NCBI GenBank assembly: GCA_020161615.1
Contig: JAIUPD010000001.1
Span: 620,584 to 684,583 of the forward strand
From: Pseudomonadota bacterium
Lineage (GTDB): Bacteria > Pseudomonadota > Alphaproteobacteria > Rhodobacterales > Rhodobacteraceae
Direction of reading: 5' to 3'
Length of the DNA: 64,000 bases
The stretch's first letter is position 1. Each line of letters opens with the position of its first letter. Shown one piece after another: positions 3,025 to 64,000 of this stretch. Position numbers and translations under genes: made by a program. A model generated the notes under the pieces. That model was given only the letters and a program-made list of their open reading frames with translations, was not told the DNA's origin and did not search any database.

Positions 3025-3747
3025 ATGCGGGGCGCGCGCGCAGCCCTGGCCTTTCTCACCCGCCTGCCCGCGGGGCCGCTCGACAGCGCCGATTTCGCGC
3101 GCGCGCCGGGCTGGTTCGGGGCTGTCGGGCTGGGGATCGGCGCGCTCTCGGCTGGCGTCTGGTTTCTGGCCTCTTGGCTCTGGGGGCCGGTGCTGGGGGC
3201 ACTGGCGGCGGTCACGGCCGGGCTCTTGCTGACGGGCGCGCTGCATGAGGACGGGCTTGCCGACACCTTCGACGGGCTGGGTTCCGGCCGTCCGGCCGAG
3301 CGCGCGCTGGAGATCATGCGCGACAGCCGCATCGGCAGTTTCGGGGCGCTGGCCCTGGGCGTGGTCCTGGCCGCGCGGGTGATGGCACTGGCGGCGCTGG
3401 GGCCTTGGGCCCCGGCCGCGCTGATCGCCGGACAGGGGCTCAGCCGCGGCGGGATGGGGGTGATGCTGCAGAGTGGGCCCTATGTCAGACTTTCAGGCGC
3501 GGGCACCGGGATGACCGGCCAGCAACCCCTGGCGCCGCCGCTGGGCGCCGCTTTGGCCGGCGGCGCGCTGCTGCTCTGGACCGCCGGTTGGGGGCTGTTG
3601 AGTGCGCTCGCGGGTCTTGCTTTGGCACAGCTGGCGATCCGCGCCTGGGCCCGGCGCCGGCTCGGCGGGATCACGGGCGATGTCCTGGGTGCGGCGCAGG
3701 TTCTGGGCGACCTGGGCCTCCTGCTGGGGCTTCTGGCATGGCGCTGA
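3025..3747 (+). CDS. cobS: Adenosylcobinamide-GDP ribazoletransferase (cobalamin synthase) CobS
   Basis: This 240-residue integral membrane protein joins adenosylcobinamide-GDP with alpha-ribazole (phosphate), the final assembly step of cobalamin. It begins ALAFLTRLP and carries the acidic motif ALHEDGLADTFDGLGSG followed by IMRDSRIGSFG, which is the family signature for metal and substrate binding. Several Ala/Leu/Gly-rich hydrophobic segments follow. Its ATG lies one base after the cobT stop, so the two are almost certainly translated together. The 3' end overlaps the next gene by 10 bp. Confidence 0.95.
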   Translation: MRGARAALAFLTRLPAGPLDSADFARAPGWFGAVGLGIGALSAGVWFLASWLWGPVLGALAAVTAGLLLTGALHEDGLADTFDGLGSGRPAERALEIMRDSRIGSFGALALGVVLAARVMALAALGPWAPAALIAGQGLSRGGMGVMLQSGPYVRLSGAGTGMTGQQPLAPPLGAALAGGALLLWTAGWGLLSALAGLALAQLAIRAWARRRLGGITGDVLGAAQVLGDLGLLLGLLAWR

Positions 3748-4259
3748 TCCTTCTGCGCCATACGCGCCCGGCGGTGGCCGAGGGCACCTGTTATGGCCGC
3801 ACCGATCTTGACCTCGCGCCGGAATTTGCCGGTGATGCGCGGAGGATCGCTTCGGAACTTCCTGATTTCACGCGCATCCTTTCCTCCCCCCTCTCGCGCT
3901 GCCACCGCCTCGCCCAGGCCATCAGCGCGGCCCGCGACCTGCCGGTCACGGTCGACCCGAGGCTGACCGAAATGGATTTCGGCCGCTGGGAAACCTGCCC
4001 CTGGGCCGAGATCCCGCGCGCCGAGATCGACGCCTGGCGCGACGATTTCCTGCACGCTCGTCCGCATGGCGGTGAGAGCGTTCAGGATCTTTACACCCGC
4101 GTCCGCGAGGCGCTGGCCGAGGCGGCGCAGGGCCCGGTCCCCGCGCTGATCGTCACCCATGCCGGGGTGATCAAGGCGGCGCTGGCGGCCCAGCGCGCGC
4201 CCGAGGCCTGGCGGGCGGAAACCACCTTCGGCACCTGGCGGAGGATCGACTGGCGATGA
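3738..4259 (+). CDS. cobC: Histidine phosphatase, probable alpha-ribazole phosphatase CobC
   Basis: A 173-residue histidine-phosphatase-superfamily protein. The phospho-accepting RHT motif is in LILLRHTRP at the N-terminus and a second catalytic His is in LIVTHAGVIKAAL near the C-terminus. CYGRTDLDL is typical of CobC-type members. The predicted reaction is removal of phosphate from alpha-ribazole 5'-phosphate or from cobalamin phosphate. The start at 3738 is chosen because an upstream extension in the same frame would run through cobS without homology. It overlaps cobS by 10 bp and the next start by ATGA. Function is inferred from family plus context; the phosphatase superfamily is broad. 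Confidence 0.82.
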   Translation: MALILLRHTRPAVAEGTCYGRTDLDLAPEFAGDARRIASELPDFTRILSSPLSRCHRLAQAISAARDLPVTVDPRLTEMDFGRWETCPWAEIPRAEIDAWRDDFLHARPHGGESVQDLYTRVREALAEAAQGPVPALIVTHAGVIKAALAAQRAPEAWRAETTFGTWRRIDWR

Positions 4260-34436: not shown

Positions 34437-34565
34437 GCGCGTCTCCTCGCCTTTTTGTCGGACCTGCGCCCGGTTGACGCACGCGGCAAGCCCCCGGCGT
34501 GGATGACCTTGCGTCCGGCGGCGCGGCCTGTCATGGAGCGGTGATCGTCCCGGGGCCGCGCCCCC

Positions 34566-34594
34566 TTGCAAAGCGGGGGAGGGCGGGGTATTGG
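34566..34594 (+). promoter_or_regulatory. Probable promoter of rpmI-rplT
   Basis: TTGCAA (34566-34571) and TATTGG (34589-34594) are separated by 17 bp, about 85 bp before rpmI. The leader between could carry the autoregulatory L20 site known in other bacteria, but none was recognised. Confidence 0.45.
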
Positions 34595-34676
34595 GGCGCC
34601 CTCTGAGCCCGCGCGGCCGGCCGGTGTGGCATGCCGAGTCGCGCGTTATGACCTCTCGAGAAGACAGGAGACGGAA

Positions 34677-34877
34677 ATGCCCAAGATGAAGACCAAATCG
34701 GCCGCCAAAAAGCGGTTCAAGGTCACTGCTACCGGCAAGATCAAATCGGCCCAGGCCGGCAAGCGCCACGGCATGATCAAGCGTACGACGAAATTCATCC
34801 GCGACGCCCGCGGCACCATGGTGCTGAGCGAGCCGGATACGAAGATCGTCAAGACCTACATGCCCTACGCCCGCTGA
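34677..34877 (+). CDS. rpmI: 50S ribosomal protein L35
   Basis: This 66-residue basic protein begins [20 protein letters not shown] and matches bacterial L35 from end to end. The start at 34677 is fixed by family length. It is followed after 17 bp by rplT, as in most bacteria. infC is not upstream and pheS is not downstream here, so the usual longer cluster has been split. Confidence 0.97.
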
Positions 34878-56397: not shown

Positions 56398-56474
56398 CGG
56401 AGTGTAGCTCAGTCTGGTAGAGCACTGTCTTCGGGAGGCAGGGGCCGGAGGTTCGAATCCTCTCACTCCGACCA
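56398..56474 (+). tRNA. tRNA-Pro (anticodon CGG)
   Basis: The 77-base cloverleaf has acceptor arms CGGAGTG / CACTCCG, a D-arm AGCTC...GAGC, an anticodon stem CTGTC / GGCAG with loop TTCGGGA (anticodon CGG at 56432-56434), a T-arm with GGTTCGAATCC, and an encoded ACCA end. The 3' half of tRNA genes is a common integration site, and foreign-looking genes begin directly downstream. Confidence 0.95.
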
Positions 56475-58932: not shown

Positions 58933-59340
58933 GTGGCACAGGACTTCCATAGCCGGGCAGGCGGCATCGCCGACAAGGCGGATCTGCGCCGGGCCTGGGC
59001 TGAGGCGCTTTGCTACGCTCTGGGCCAATGCCACGCCCGGGATGCGGCGGTGATCTGCGCCGCCTTCCTGGCAGAGCGGGAGACCGGCGGCCCGGCGCTG
59101 GCCGCACAGGACCGGCTGTCGGTCGAGGATGCCCGCTGGTGGGCCGACATCGCCCCGCCGCACGAGCTGGTCGCCTATGGCATGGCCGCGCTCGACCGAC
59201 TGCGCAGCACGGCCCTGGCGCCGACCACGCGCAAGAAACTGTTCGTGTCCCTCTGGGAAAGCTTCTCCGACGCGGAGCGGCTGCGGTTCGTGCAGCGGAT
59301 CGACCCCGAGGGACTGGTGATCCGGAGGGACCATGACTGA
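58933..59340 (+). CDS. Hypothetical protein preceding the primase
   Basis: This 135-residue helical protein has two Cys in the first half (ALCYALGQCHARD). It starts with GTG at 58933 after GAGAGG and overlaps the primase-helicase gene by 8 bp, so it is probably made together with it. No family is recognised. The overlap suggests a replication-associated role. Confidence 0.6.
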   Translation: MAQDFHSRAGGIADKADLRRAWAEALCYALGQCHARDAAVICAAFLAERETGGPALAAQDRLSVEDARWWADIAPPHELVAYGMAALDRLRSTALAPTTRKKLFVSLWESFSDAERLRFVQRIDPEGLVIRRDHD

Positions 59341-60877
59341 CGATCCGCTAGATCGGGCCTCCGGCCTGAAGGTGATCGAGGGCGGCGGCGGCAAGGGGCG
59401 CGCGGCATCGGGCAACACCGGGGAGGGGACGGCCGAGGTCAGCGCCTCCCGGGAGGCCACAGGAGGCCCGGCGAGGGCCAAGCCCCCGCCTGGCGGTGCA
59501 GCCAGGAGAAAGCGCAAGCCTGCCGCCCCTGCGGCGCTCTCTGGGGGCGTCCTGACCGAAGACGCGGTGGCGCTCCTCTTCACCGCCGAGCACGGCCAGA
59601 GCGCGCGCTTTGACCACGAGCTGGGCAAATGGGCGATCTGGGACGCCGAGGCCCGGCGCTGGCGCTGGGACAAGCGCCAGACGGCGGCGCATTGGTGCCG
59701 CGAGCTGGCCCGCGAGGCCAGCGACGGCGAGGCGCCCAAGGTGCTGGAACGGGTGCGCCGGCGCAGCTTCCTGTCCGGGGTCGAGGCCATGTGCCGCGCC
59801 GATCCGACCCATGCCGTCACGCAGGAGGTCTGGGACCCGGACGACATGCTCCTGGGCTGCCCGGGCGTGACCGTGGATCTGCGCAGCGGGCGTCACCAGG
59901 CGCCGCGCCCCGAGGACATGCTCACCCGGCTGGCGGCCGTGGCGCCCGATCCGACCCTGCCGATCCCGATCTGGCGGGAGTTCCTGCGCCGGGCGACGGG
60001 GGAGGACGATGAGCTGGAGCGCTTCCTGCAGGTCTTCGCGGGCTACTCGCTGACCGGATCGGTCAAGGAACATCAGATGGTGTTCTTCCACGGCGGCGGC
60101 GGCAACGGCAAGTCGCTCTTGCTCAACACCTTGGTGGGCATCCTGGGCGAGTACGCCCAGACCGCCAGCATGGACACCTTCGCCGCCTCCACCTTCGAGC
60201 GGCATTCGACCGACCTGGCAGCAATGCGGGGCGCGCGCGTGGTGGCGGTCTCCGAGGTCGCCCAGGGCGTGGGTTGGAACCAGCAGCGGCTGACGCAGAT
60301 GACCGGCGGCGACAAGGTGCGCGCCCGTTTCATGCGGCAGGATGAGTTCGAGTATCACCCCAAGTTCAAGCTCTGGGTGGTCGGCAACCACAAGCCCGAG
60401 CTGGGCAATGTCAACGAGGCGATGCGGCGGCGGATGAACATCATCCCCTTCAACCACAAGCCCGAACGCCCCGACCCGGACCTGTTCGAGCGGCTGAAAC
60501 CGGAATGGCCGGGCATCCTGCACTGGATGATCCTCGGCTGCCTGGAATGGCAGAGCGAAGGCCTCTCACGGCCGCAGGTGATCTCGGCCGAGACCGACGA
60601 GTATTTCGGGGAGCAGGACACGTTTGGGCAATGGATCTCGGAATGCTGCCGGGTGGACAGCCGGGACCCGCATTGCTGGGACGTGGCGCTGGAGCTGTTC
60701 CAGAGCTGGAAGACCTTCGCCGAGGCCCGCAACGCGGCCCCGGGTAGTTCGAAGGCGTTCGCGGAGCTGTTGAAGGCGAAGGGAGCGCAAGCGACGAAAA
60801 CATATGTGCAGGGGAAACAGGTGCGAATCTGGCGCGGCATCATGTTGCATCGCCTGCACTTGGAAGGCGGGATCTAG
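59333..60877 (+). CDS. P4-type primase / SF3 DNA helicase
   Basis: This 514-residue protein has, after a disordered basic N-terminus of about 70 residues, a D5-N-like domain (about 100-230) and an SF3 helicase with Walker A GGGGNGKS (Gly254-Ser261), Walker B region GARVVAVSEVAQG, motif C LWVVGNHKPE and RRRMNIIPF. It ends with a winged-helix-like region. It matches the phage/plasmid primase family (P4 alpha type, C-terminal part). It should unwind the element's origin. No complete primase (Toprim or AEP) active site was recognised, so priming may depend on the host. Confidence 0.85.
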   Translation: MTDDPLDRASGLKVIEGGGGKGRAASGNTGEGTAEVSASREATGGPARAKPPPGGAARRKRKPAAPAALSGGVLTEDAVALLFTAEHGQSARFDHELGKWAIWDAEARRWRWDKRQTAAHWCRELAREASDGEAPKVLERVRRRSFLSGVEAMCRADPTHAVTQEVWDPDDMLLGCPGVTVDLRSGRHQAPRPEDMLTRLAAVAPDPTLPIPIWREFLRRATGEDDELERFLQVFAGYSLTGSVKEHQMVFFHGGGGNGKSLLLNTLVGILGEYAQTASMDTFAASTFERHSTDLAAMRGARVVAVSEVAQGVGWNQQRLTQMTGGDKVRARFMRQDEFEYHPKFKLWVVGNHKPELGNVNEAMRRRMNIIPFNHKPERPDPDLFERLKPEWPGILHWMILGCLEWQSEGLSRPQVISAETDEYFGEQDTFGQWISECCRVDSRDPHCWDVALELFQSWKTFAEARNAAPGSSKAFAELLKAKGAQATKTYVQGKQVRIWRGIMLHRLHLEGGI

Positions 60878-60893
60878 CGGGTGACCAAGACGC

Positions 60894-60990
60894 ATAAGAC
60901 GGATGAGACGGATCGATTTGTAACTTTCTCACGCGCGTACGCGCGCGTGCGCGCGGCAGAGTTACCCAGAGATCTGTCTTATCCGTCTTG
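60894..60990. repeat. Nested palindrome unit 1 (candidate origin or structured RNA)
   Basis: Outer arms 60894-60913 and 60972-60990 pair over about 20 bp with three G-T pairs (sequence type AAGACGGATGAGACGGAT). An inner GTAACT / AGTTAC pair (60920-60925, 60960-60965) encloses a CGCG-rich centre, CACGCGCGTACGCGCGCGTG. It starts 17 bp after the primase-helicase stop. The core is shared with unit 2. Confidence 0.7.
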
Positions 60991-61032
60991 TGGAGCCGAG
61001 GCGGCGGCGAAAGAGGCAATGAAACAAGGGGC

Positions 61033-61126
61033 TGTAACGGATGTAACGGATCGATTTGTAACTTCCTCACGCGCGTACACGCGTGCGCGCGGCAGAGTTA
61101 CCGAAGTATCCGTTACATCCGTTACA
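61033..61126. repeat. Nested palindrome unit 2 (candidate origin or structured RNA)
   Basis: Perfect 19-bp inverted repeat TGTAACGGATGTAACGGAT (61033-61051) and its complement (61108-61126), each arm itself a direct repeat. Inside are GTAACT / AGTTAC and a CGCG-rich centre almost identical to unit 1. The arms differ from unit 1 yet remain self-complementary. Confidence 0.75.
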
Positions 61127-61153
61127 CCCCCGGCAACTGGGAAAGGAAAGACC

Positions 61154-61402
61154 ATGGGAATGATGAGGAAGAACCCGGATCAGGGCCGCGCGGTCGAGCT
61201 GTGCGAGCGGGTGCGAGACCTGGACCGCGAGCTGATCGAACTGGTCATGACCTACCAGGATGACATGACCCTGAAAGGGACGGGCGAGCTGGTCAAGATG
61301 CAGACCAGGCTCCGCCACCTGCGCTACATGATCGAGGGGGAGGCCCGCATCGACCTGCCGATGCGAGCGGGTCCTTCCCAAGCAAACCCCCTCCGCGGGT
61401 AA
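61154..61402 (+). CDS. Small helical protein of the element
   Basis: This 82-residue protein starts at the ATG at 61154 after AAAGGAAAG. It is mostly one long helix pair (AVELCERVRDLDRELIELVMTYQDDMTLKGTGELVKMQTRLRHLRYMIEGE). The frame is open back to 60881, but that upstream part is the palindrome region and its translation has no sensible composition, so I do not include it. No family is recognised. Confidence 0.5.
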   Translation: MGMMRKNPDQGRAVELCERVRDLDRELIELVMTYQDDMTLKGTGELVKMQTRLRHLRYMIEGEARIDLPMRAGPSQANPLRG

Positions 61403-61817
61403 TTCGCACCCCGGTGGTCAAGCCCCGCTTAACTCTAAGGAAAGCCTAAACTTAACAAAGGCATGGCGAGGTGAAAGAGCCCTCAGTTGACCGAGTGGAT
61501 GCCTGCGCGAAAGCCGAAAGGTTAGGGAGGGGGAATACAGCAGTCGTGGTTGGCGGCTGAGTCTTCTGCGGTAAGTGTTACAAACAGGGCGGGGAGTGGA
61601 TGCCCGTATTGGGTGCGAGGCTAGATCTGAGCGACCGCAGCGGAGCTCTTTAGAGACTGGGAGGTGGATTAGTATGCGTTGCGTGCCTGCCGGTGCGGGC
61701 TTCGTTTGAACAATTTCGCCCTGCGCCGGGCGTCGCTTCAATTAAGGGTCGACACCGGATTGGTTCTTTAGCATCTACTTGTGCAGTTCTTGGTCTTGAA
61801 GTCGATGTATACCAATC
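61403..61817. other. Non-coding stretch before the SIR2 gene
   Basis: These 415 bases have a lower G+C content than the chromosome and many stops in all frames. No gene, promoter or hairpin was convincing. The SIR2 gene has no clear ribosome-binding site, so its leader may matter. Confidence 0.5.
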
Positions 61818-63902
61818 ATGCCGCTTCGCTTTTCCGAGGAAGGACCAGAGTTTCCTTCGCCGTTGGTCGACGCTTTGCTCAAGGGCGACGTTGTATTCCT
61901 GTGTGGCGCGGGCATTAGTGCCCCGCAGCTACCTGGCTTTGCTGATCTTGTTGATCTTTGCTACGCTGAGCTGAACCTTGAAAAAGATCGCTCTGAGCAC
62001 TTCTCGTACTCAGAATACAGGTTCGAAGAGGTTCTGGGTTCCCTCAGTCGCAGGATCGCCGATCCTGATGAGTTGGTTCGCACCGTCAGCGGCTTGGTCA
62101 AACTGCCAGACCCTCCGGACCTCTCATGCCATCGAACGCTCCTCCGGTTATCGCGCGATTTGGAAAACCGGCCAAGCATTGTCACTACAAACTTCGACAC
62201 CTTGATCGAGCACGCCTGGATGCAGGAAGGTGCGCCCCGGAAGGTTGTCGCGGGAGCGAGTTTCGCAGGCCAAGCGCTGCCCTTGCCTGGCAGCGCCGGG
62301 TTTCAGGGCGTCATCCACATCCACGGCCGCATCGGCGACCAGGCCATCGGGGTGGAACAGTCCGCCCTTGTCATGACCAGCGCCGATTATGGCGACGCCT
62401 ACATGAGGTCCGGTTGGGTCTCGCGGTTCCTGTTCGACCTGTGCCGCTGCAAGACGGTTGTACTGGTCGGTTACAGTGCCAATGACGCGCCGGTTCGGTA
62501 CTTCCTCAACGTGCTGGAGGCTGACAGGACCCGCTTCCCTGACCTTCGTACGGTCTACGCTCTTGATGCTGTTCGGGACAGCGAGGAAGACACGATAGCT
62601 CGTTGGGCGGCCTTGGCAGTCGAAGTGCTGCCTTATCGAGCTGTGGTAGGCCCTGATGAGCAACCGCAGCAGCATACTGCATTGTGGCGAGACCTGGAGA
62701 AGCTCGCCGACCTGGTTGAGACGCCGAAAGCAACGCGCCGTCGCTGGGCTTCGGATCTCCTGTGTAGGCCATTTAATGAAGCTACCCCGACCGAGCTCGA
62801 TTGGGTCGCATGGCTCTTTACGGGCCGGCGCGACCTTTTCGATCTCGTAATCGACGCCGTTCAGGATAGCGCTTGGCTGGACTTCTGTGCTGATCGAAAG
62901 CTCTGGACGGACCAAGATGCTGACTGGATATCGGCTGCGTGGGCGAGCAAGGACTTTCAGAGCAAGGCACGCTTTCAGGCGGCGCTCAAATGGAATGCAA
63001 AGCTCGGAAAAGGTTTCCGGTCACAACTGGGCTTTCGGCTAGGTCAGGCGCGAGAACTGCCTGAACTATGGCGCTTAGCTTGGCGTCTCATGGCGACCAG
63101 TGAGCCGCAGCGATTGCACTGGGATGATCGATCCTACGCCGTGCGGCGAGAACTGGCGCATGAAACTGTCTTGTATGCTGATCTTCGAAAGGCCGTGGGC
63201 TTGCTGTCTCCGCGCCTCATTCTTGAACCGAACCGGAGCGATCTCTACGGCTCGCCAACTCTAGACTCTCCTGAACGTCTGACGGACCTTACCTGGATCA
63301 GATTGGGCGTTCCCGACCACGGAGGCGCCGCCGAACTGCTCCACGCGCTGCTCAGGCATCCTCAGCCCTCAGTGCTCATTGGCTTGGCCACGGCAGAGCT
63401 GCGCGACGCTATCGGCAGGGGAGTTGACGCAGGCCTGGTTGGGGAAGACTTCGACCGGCTCGACTCAGGCGTTCCGTCGATTGAGCCCCATGCTCAGAAC
63501 GAGCACCGAGATGGGATCGTCTTCCTCACCGAGCTGCTTGCCCGCCTGCTCCCATTGGTCGCGGCGACTGACGCGCCGGGGGCGCGGCGGCAAGCAGAGG
63601 AGTGGCGCATCATGCCAAGCCGGGTCGGCCTCCGCCTCTGGATGCACGCACTTCGCAATCCAAACCTCTTTGCCGCTACGGAGGCCATGGCAGCGCTACT
63701 TGGCCTCTCGCTCGATGATTTCTGGCGGACCCACCGCGAGCTGGCGCTCGTTGTGCGGGACCGCTCAAGTGACGCAGACCGAAAGGTGGTCGAGAGCCTA
63801 GAAAACCGCGTTCGGAGTGAAGCGCAGCTGTTCTATCAGCGCTATGAGGTCGAAGAAGGGCAGCCGGACTGGCGTAAGCGGGAAGGGAACCCCGTGGGTT
63901 AA
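61818..63902 (+). CDS. SIR2-domain protein, probable anti-phage defence NADase
   Basis: This 694-residue protein has an N-terminal SIR2-like domain: FLCGAGISAP with Gly30-Ala31-Gly32, TTNFDTLIEHA with Asn125 and Asp127, IHIHGRIGD with the presumed catalytic His169, and LVGYSANDAP. The remaining 400 residues are helical and unrecognised. SIR2 proteins of this kind (DSR, Thoeris ThsA, AVAST relatives) deplete NAD+ in infected cells, and mobile elements often carry them. Codon use and G+C are lower than in the core genome, suggesting transfer. It ends at a TAA 98 bases from the window edge; relatives known to me can be longer, so it may be shortened. Confidence 0.8.
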   Translation: MPLRFSEEGPEFPSPLVDALLKGDVVFLCGAGISAPQLPGFADLVDLCYAELNLEKDRSEHFSYSEYRFEEVLGSLSRRIADPDELVRTVSGLVKLPDPPDLSCHRTLLRLSRDLENRPSIVTTNFDTLIEHAWMQEGAPRKVVAGASFAGQALPLPGSAGFQGVIHIHGRIGDQAIGVEQSALVMTSADYGDAYMRSGWVSRFLFDLCRCKTVVLVGYSANDAPVRYFLNVLEADRTRFPDLRTVYALDAVRDSEEDTIARWAALAVEVLPYRAVVGPDEQPQQHTALWRDLEKLADLVETPKATRRRWASDLLCRPFNEATPTELDWVAWLFTGRRDLFDLVIDAVQDSAWLDFCADRKLWTDQDADWISAAWASKDFQSKARFQAALKWNAKLGKGFRSQLGFRLGQARELPELWRLAWRLMATSEPQRLHWDDRSYAVRRELAHETVLYADLRKAVGLLSPRLILEPNRSDLYGSPTLDSPERLTDLTWIRLGVPDHGGAAELLHALLRHPQPSVLIGLATAELRDAIGRGVDAGLVGEDFDRLDSGVPSIEPHAQNEHRDGIVFLTELLARLLPLVAATDAPGARRQAEEWRIMPSRVGLRLWMHALRNPNLFAATEAMAALLGLSLDDFWRTHRELALVVRDRSSDADRKVVESLENRVRSEAQLFYQRYEVEEGQPDWRKREGNPVG

Positions 63903-64000
63903 GAGCGCGTCCGGTGTGGAGTAGGCTTCTTGCGTTGCTCTGATCGCCGAGGTTCCATGTCTAGAACTAGTTCTACGCCTATGCCTACGACTGGTAGCTT

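Follow-up and report, generated by a model that had tools for sequence, protein, structure and literature searches.

Two palindromes of inverted 9-bp repeats behind a D5-type helicase gene are predicted replication-origin units in a Rhodobacteraceae contig

What purpose do two large palindromes serve when they lie one after the other directly behind a helicase gene? The question arises from a 64,000-nucleotide stretch of DNA from a member of the Rhodobacteraceae (contig JAIUPD010000001.1), hereafter called the window. A preliminary description of this DNA reported two nested palindromes with covarying arms around a shared core and suggested an element replication origin with iterons. The features on which our analysis centers are as follows.

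59333..60877, plus strand: SF3/D5-type helicase, 514 aa, likely initiator (Pfam, PHROG, structure model)
60893..60992, no strand assigned: predicted origin unit 1, palindrome with iteron RAGACGGAT (detector score 32, fold)
60896..60913, plus strand: unit 1, two direct 9-bp iterons, arm AAGACGGATGAGACGGAT
60914..60971, no strand assigned: unit 1 centre, with an inner short palindrome GTAACT/AGTTAC around an alternating CGCG tract (60930-60955)
60972..60989, minus strand: unit 1, two inverted 9-bp iterons, arm ATCTGTCTTATCCGTCTT
61028..61131, no strand assigned: predicted origin unit 2, palindrome with iteron GTAACGGAT (detector score 36, fold)
61033..61051, plus strand: unit 2, two direct 9-bp iterons, arm TGTAACGGATGTAACGGAT
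61052..61107, no strand assigned: unit 2 centre, with an alternating CGCG tract (61068-61091)
61108..61126, minus strand: unit 2, two inverted 9-bp iterons, arm ATCCGTTACATCCGTTACA
61154..61402, plus strand: small ORF, 82 aa, 3' of the units (ORF list, relatives)

The palindromes are real and lie where they had been placed, starting 16 bp (unit 1) and 151 bp (unit 2) past the helicase stop at 60877. They have a common core, CGATTTGTAACT ... GGCAGAGTTACC (60914-60925 / 60955-60966 and 61052-61063 / 61091-61102), and their centres, in which the two halves of this core enclose the alternating CGCG tract, are nearly identical; the centre of unit 2 is 57% G+C. The left arm of unit 1 is a tandem 9-bp pair, AAGACGGAT GAGACGGAT, and its right arm repeats this pair in inverted orientation, with the last copy one base off; the left arm of unit 2 is a tandem GTAACGGAT GTAACGGAT and its right arm the inverted pair. 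The arms of unit 2 are exact reverse complements over 19 bp, and those of unit 1 are imperfect, with 19/22 positions matching. The covariation described for the arms is likewise present, as AAG or GAG in unit 1 is replaced by GTA in unit 2 in both arms. Complementarity of this kind follows from one 9-bp repeat array placed in both orientations. We scored the inverted 9-bp-repeat layout with a detector that counts 18 complementary positions and 9 period-9 matches per arm (maximum 36). Across the whole window, scores of at least 29 occurred only at units 1 and 2, and the best score in two 64-kb shuffles was 26. The predicted RNA folds of the units have energies of -64.9 (unit 1) and -65.2 kcal/mol (unit 2), corresponding to z-scores of -10.0 and -9.3 against dinucleotide shuffles, with 0/200 shuffles as good in either case.

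The gene upstream had been called a P4-type primase-helicase, of which the helicase part stands: Pfam assigns D5_N (1e-20) and DUF5906 (6e-11) to the protein, and the same search gave no primase domain match. The protein is related to PHROG phage DNA primase/helicase families. Its structure model (pLDDT 77.7; residues 1-71 below 50) has Foldseek matches to AsfvPrimPol, MPXV E5, D5, and the SaPI5 primase-helicase 7ola, the last with a Foldseek E value of 3e-17 and a sequence E value of 1e-4.

We asked how often such a unit accompanies a helicase of this type. Related D5_N/SF3 helicases were collected from genomes, viral contigs, and one phage, yielding 69 distinct downstream regions once three duplicates (L013, L022, L023) had been dropped; near relatives, namely the Pararhodobacter aggregans locus L009 and Rhodovulum-type loci, were retained in this count. 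As the iterons differ between loci, we used the period detector and called a unit at a score of at least 28 of 36, with both the detector and this threshold fixed after the first loci had been viewed. A unit was found behind 46 of the 69 helicase loci, compared with 0/65 upstream controls of the same loci and 2/690 shuffles, and the median unit began 38.5 bp 3' of the helicase stop. Units were present at every level of identity to the window helicase (3/4 loci at ≥60%, 18/26 at 38-60%, 17/24 at 30-37%, and 8/15 below 30%). Phage AcaML1 (L028), counted within the 69, has a unit scoring 34, and its layout, like that of others, closely resembles the one in the window. This comparative evidence supports the suggestion of an iteron-bearing replication origin next to an SF3 helicase, and we predict with considerable confidence that both palindromes serve the helicase encoded immediately before them as replication-origin units.

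Run with the detector and threshold unchanged, 26 loci sampled later from the same phylum gave a unit in 12/26 downstream regions, 0/26 upstream regions, and 0/260 shuffles; one of these loci (L099) repeats the unit of L012 (11/25 without it), and some lineages are common to both samples. All loci were gathered via the helicase, and helicase-free occurrence was gauged in the upstream controls, in this window, and in 16 longer loci that included the last 14 kb of the window. Of these longer loci, 13 had a unit scoring at least 29 behind the helicase, and units of that score elsewhere were limited to one each in L024 and L025. Helicase loci below the threshold numbered 23/69 and, in the later sample, 14/26; by eye, some of them (L020, L030, L101, L111) hold degenerate or 10-bp-spaced arrays and others nothing. 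L020 has two long palindromes (2167-2266 and 2304-2403), with iterons apparently spaced 10 bp rather than 9; the helicase relative in front of them has a stop codon within its matched stretch. A second related helicase in one genome (L054; G000:C1:284066-284884) has its own unit (score 32, arm GGGTCGTCAGGGTCGTAT) with a different iteron, as expected for orthogonal replicons.

The arms themselves bear on whether the palindromes act as DNA or as RNA. When arms were picked by complementarity alone, 42/69 regions reached at least 17/20 and 0/345 shuffles did so, and the 84 arms thus picked showed an identity of 0.745 at lag 9, compared with 0.19-0.31 at the other lags from 4 to 14. Iteron sequence varied widely, with 43 distinct iterons among 46 units; complementarity was 91% between the two arms of a unit and 29% between arms taken from different units, rising to 52% at the best register. 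A structured RNA, or a terminator or attenuator, between the helicase gene and the 82-aa gene, with the two hairpins acting in RNA, would account for the very stable folds, the covarying arms, and the position of the units in a gap between two genes of the same direction. However, an RNA has no need of tandem 9-bp repeats within its arms, and the only Rfam match in the window is a tRNA, with none at the units. The mismatches also fail to point to an RNA: the first sample had 71 in 828 arm pairs, 19 of them G-T and 21 A-C, and the later sample had 6 G-T and 2 A-C, so that at these small counts neither strand is clearly favored as a transcript. We therefore set the structured RNA aside as highly improbable. 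The covariation, which had been taken as strong evidence for a selected structure, is thus real but does not serve as proof of a selected transcript hairpin. The arm pattern agrees better with a duplex-DNA binding site repeated in inverted arrays than with an RNA hairpin under selection. We also rejected the idea that the units are coding sequence. A GTG ORF (60881-61402) spans both, but the start in L009 and L010 is by eye the ATG at 61154, L009 lacks unit 1, and the centre measures 56 nt in unit 2 versus 54 nt in L010, from which we conclude that no conserved reading frame runs through the units.

The centre shows a regularity of its own. CGCG was present in the centre of 19/21 units in the group of at least 38% helicase identity, the window included (mean 2.48 versus 0.37 expected), in 13/17 units at 30-37%, and in 2/8 below 30%, where the mean loop G+C was 0.41. 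Searching viral contigs with the core pattern matched 6 contigs. In four of them (L002, L004, L005, L006) the match appears by eye to be a coincidence inside one phage gene, and these were discarded. The other two, L001 and L003, contain core-like sequence with TGTAACTTT repeats and no detectable relative of the window helicase in the stretch examined; in the phage contig L001 there are many TGTAACTTT repeats at 595-612 and around, and terminase and portal genes follow.

If the palindromes are protein-binding arrays, the next question is which protein would read them. Small DNA-binding proteins often use inverted arrays, and the repeats stand in front of a small gene, so the iterons might instead be an operator or partition array, read by a repressor or centromere protein belonging to the element rather than by the helicase. 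The upstream controls were nonetheless empty, Pfam and PHROG scans gave no family match for the five ORFs of the block other than the helicase, and iteron divergence follows the helicase C-terminus. In partial Mantel tests on 44 of 45 units that were usable, with L009 excluded beforehand, iteron distance was associated with the C-terminus given the motor (r 0.205, p 0.0005, a p-value that does not fully remove shared ancestry) and showed r -0.07 with the motor given the C-terminus. The constancy of the helicase at these loci is partly by design, as they were collected by helicase. Overall, we consider an operator or partition array very unlikely.

To place the units in their element, we compared the window with its nearest relative, L009, and scanned the neighborhood. 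Two further features of this neighborhood are as follows.

56398..56474, plus strand: tRNA-Pro(cgg), inside the block common to the window and L009, left of the element's genes
61367..61378, plus strand: cos-like motif GCGGGTCCTTCC (recurrence downstream of the origin in relatives)

Between 55001, which precedes the tRNA, and 61491, the point at which homology is lost, the window and L009 share 93% identity. The only gap in this alignment is the stretch holding unit 1; L009 has a single unit, which carries the iterons of unit 2, and unit 1 is accordingly either dispensable or new. Pfam and PHROG gave no match for the four ORFs between the tRNA-Pro and the helicase or for the 82-aa ORF, the start region of which is by eye also present in L009 and L010. 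Among the ORFs scanned, no PICI gene set (int, rpr, xis-pri-rep) was recognized, and contig and window end at the same position. These observations raise the possibility that the units are a relic, left out of use in a decayed prophage or satellite remnant: the block common to L009 extends about 5 kb from the tRNA, no integrase is found among its scanned ORFs, and unit 1 is absent from L009. Against this, the arms of unit 2 are identical in the window and L009 although the surrounding block is 93% identical, and the helicase frame is open in both. We thus regard a relic as unlikely. A search for att repeats of the tRNA-Pro end gave no exact match of at least 11 bp in 61301-64000 of the window or 7901-9600 of L009.

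Downstream of the origin, the motif GGGTCCTTCC recurs in the window (61367-61416), L009 (7888), L010 (7318), L011 (7479), L014 (7552), L018 (9801), and L024 (9517), followed in several loci by GGGTAATTCGC. In L018 it directly precedes the terminase genes Nu1 and GpA, and in this position it looks like a packaging (cos) site that this small element carries; judged from such sequence context, the cos-like motif at 61367..61378 is probably a packaging site. Just beyond the end of the L009 homology, a 694-aa protein with a SIR2_2 domain (61818-63902) is perhaps an anti-phage defence gene.

The preliminary description knew of no named system with this layout; in fact, P4 crr and the PICI/SaPI origins have it. 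P4 crr, like the window units, lies directly behind a D5-type primase/helicase gene (alpha), in two copies annotated as 120 bp each with 8-bp type 1 repeats. These repeats are spaced 9 bp where direct, as in the window, and are followed by inverted ones spaced 18 bp. The P4 type 1 repeat TGTTCACC differs in sequence from the window iterons RAGACGGAT and GTAACGGAT, and its arms are degenerate, with a detector score of 24 that equals the best shuffle. P4 has a further origin elsewhere; in this window no other score reaches 29, though the element may extend beyond the contig end. The phiadh (L086) and Sfi21 origins also start where a related primase gene ends (annotated rep_origin 3612-3997 with primase stop 3619, and annotated origin 34487-34784 with primase stop 34515, respectively), with inverted repeat arrays by eye. 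They differ from the window in being AT-rich, without a clean 9-bp spacing, and below threshold (both score 26, against best shuffles of 26 and 25, respectively). All three known origins score at or near shuffle level as their repeats are degenerate or, by eye, spaced 8 to 11 bp. The detector was run on 14 phage records, made up of 12 phages (phiadh among them), Sfi21, and P4, with non-proteobacterial hosts in 11 cases. Guanica15 alone passed, with a unit inside an annotated CDS. The three whose hosts are proteobacterial, namely P4 of E. coli and the Shewanella and Proteus phages (L093 and L094), did not pass, and the latter two gave nothing. In several actinobacteriophages there is no gap after the primase gene.

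The SaPI/PICI rep-ori regions (SaPIbov1, SaPI5, EcCICFT073) resemble the window in having the origin immediately 3' of rep and two iteron sets, and the window helicase is of the SaPI5 Rep type. SV40 T antigen and papillomavirus E1 are also helicases that recognize their own origin, loaded as two hexamers on paired sites. Their binding domain is N-terminal, and they belong to eukaryotic viruses; a comparison of them with SaPI Rep is made in PMC7581432. PMC6092414 places PICI origins 3' of rep, with two iteron sets flanking an AT-rich region, and describes a replicating EcCICFT073 rep-ori plasmid. According to PMC7581432, the C-terminal domain of SaPI Rep recognizes iterons directly downstream of its own gene, and Cch2, a D5-type helicase, uses its C-terminal domain to bind its putative origin; this binding requires the direct repeats but not the inverted ones. 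The palindrome as such may therefore matter less than the iterons. The window centre is CGCG-rich rather than AT-rich, which is why we class the units as a variant of the P4-crr/PICI kind and not as a PICI origin. The best reading of the sequence evidence is that the units are predicted origins of a self-loading helicase, of the P4-crr/PICI kind with a CGCG-rich centre in place of an AT-rich one.

The most likely mechanism, drawn by analogy from SaPI Rep, P4 alpha, and Cch2, is one in which the helicase would bind the two tandem and two inverted 9-bp iterons through its C-terminal domain; two SF3 rings would be set head to head over the centre, and the centre would then be melted. Two forks may depart in opposite directions, as for P4 alpha, SaPI Rep, and SV40 T antigen, and helicase and iteron would have diverged together in each element. 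Tentatively, and with rather less than even confidence, we extend this to the self-loading D5_N/SF3 helicases that phages, satellites, and prophages encode in general: a C-terminal domain would read a private 9-bp iteron, arranged as inverted tandem arrays immediately 3' of the helicase gene, and rapid joint diversification of iteron and helicase would leave each element with an orthogonal replicon. The same tentative proposal includes unit 1 as a second address, for example for the helicase of a helper phage, since its iteron differs from that of unit 2 in three variable positions. The general code is the likelier of these two parts. In our literature searches, no title or abstract described a 9-bp rule.

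These results turn an unnamed palindrome into a predicted origin. They suggest a rule by which inverted 9-bp-repeat arrays just behind a D5_N helicase may locate many prophage and satellite origins from sequence, and the 58 helicase-unit pairs (46 + 12; 57 without L099) provide a first data set for matching C-terminal residues to the bases they read.
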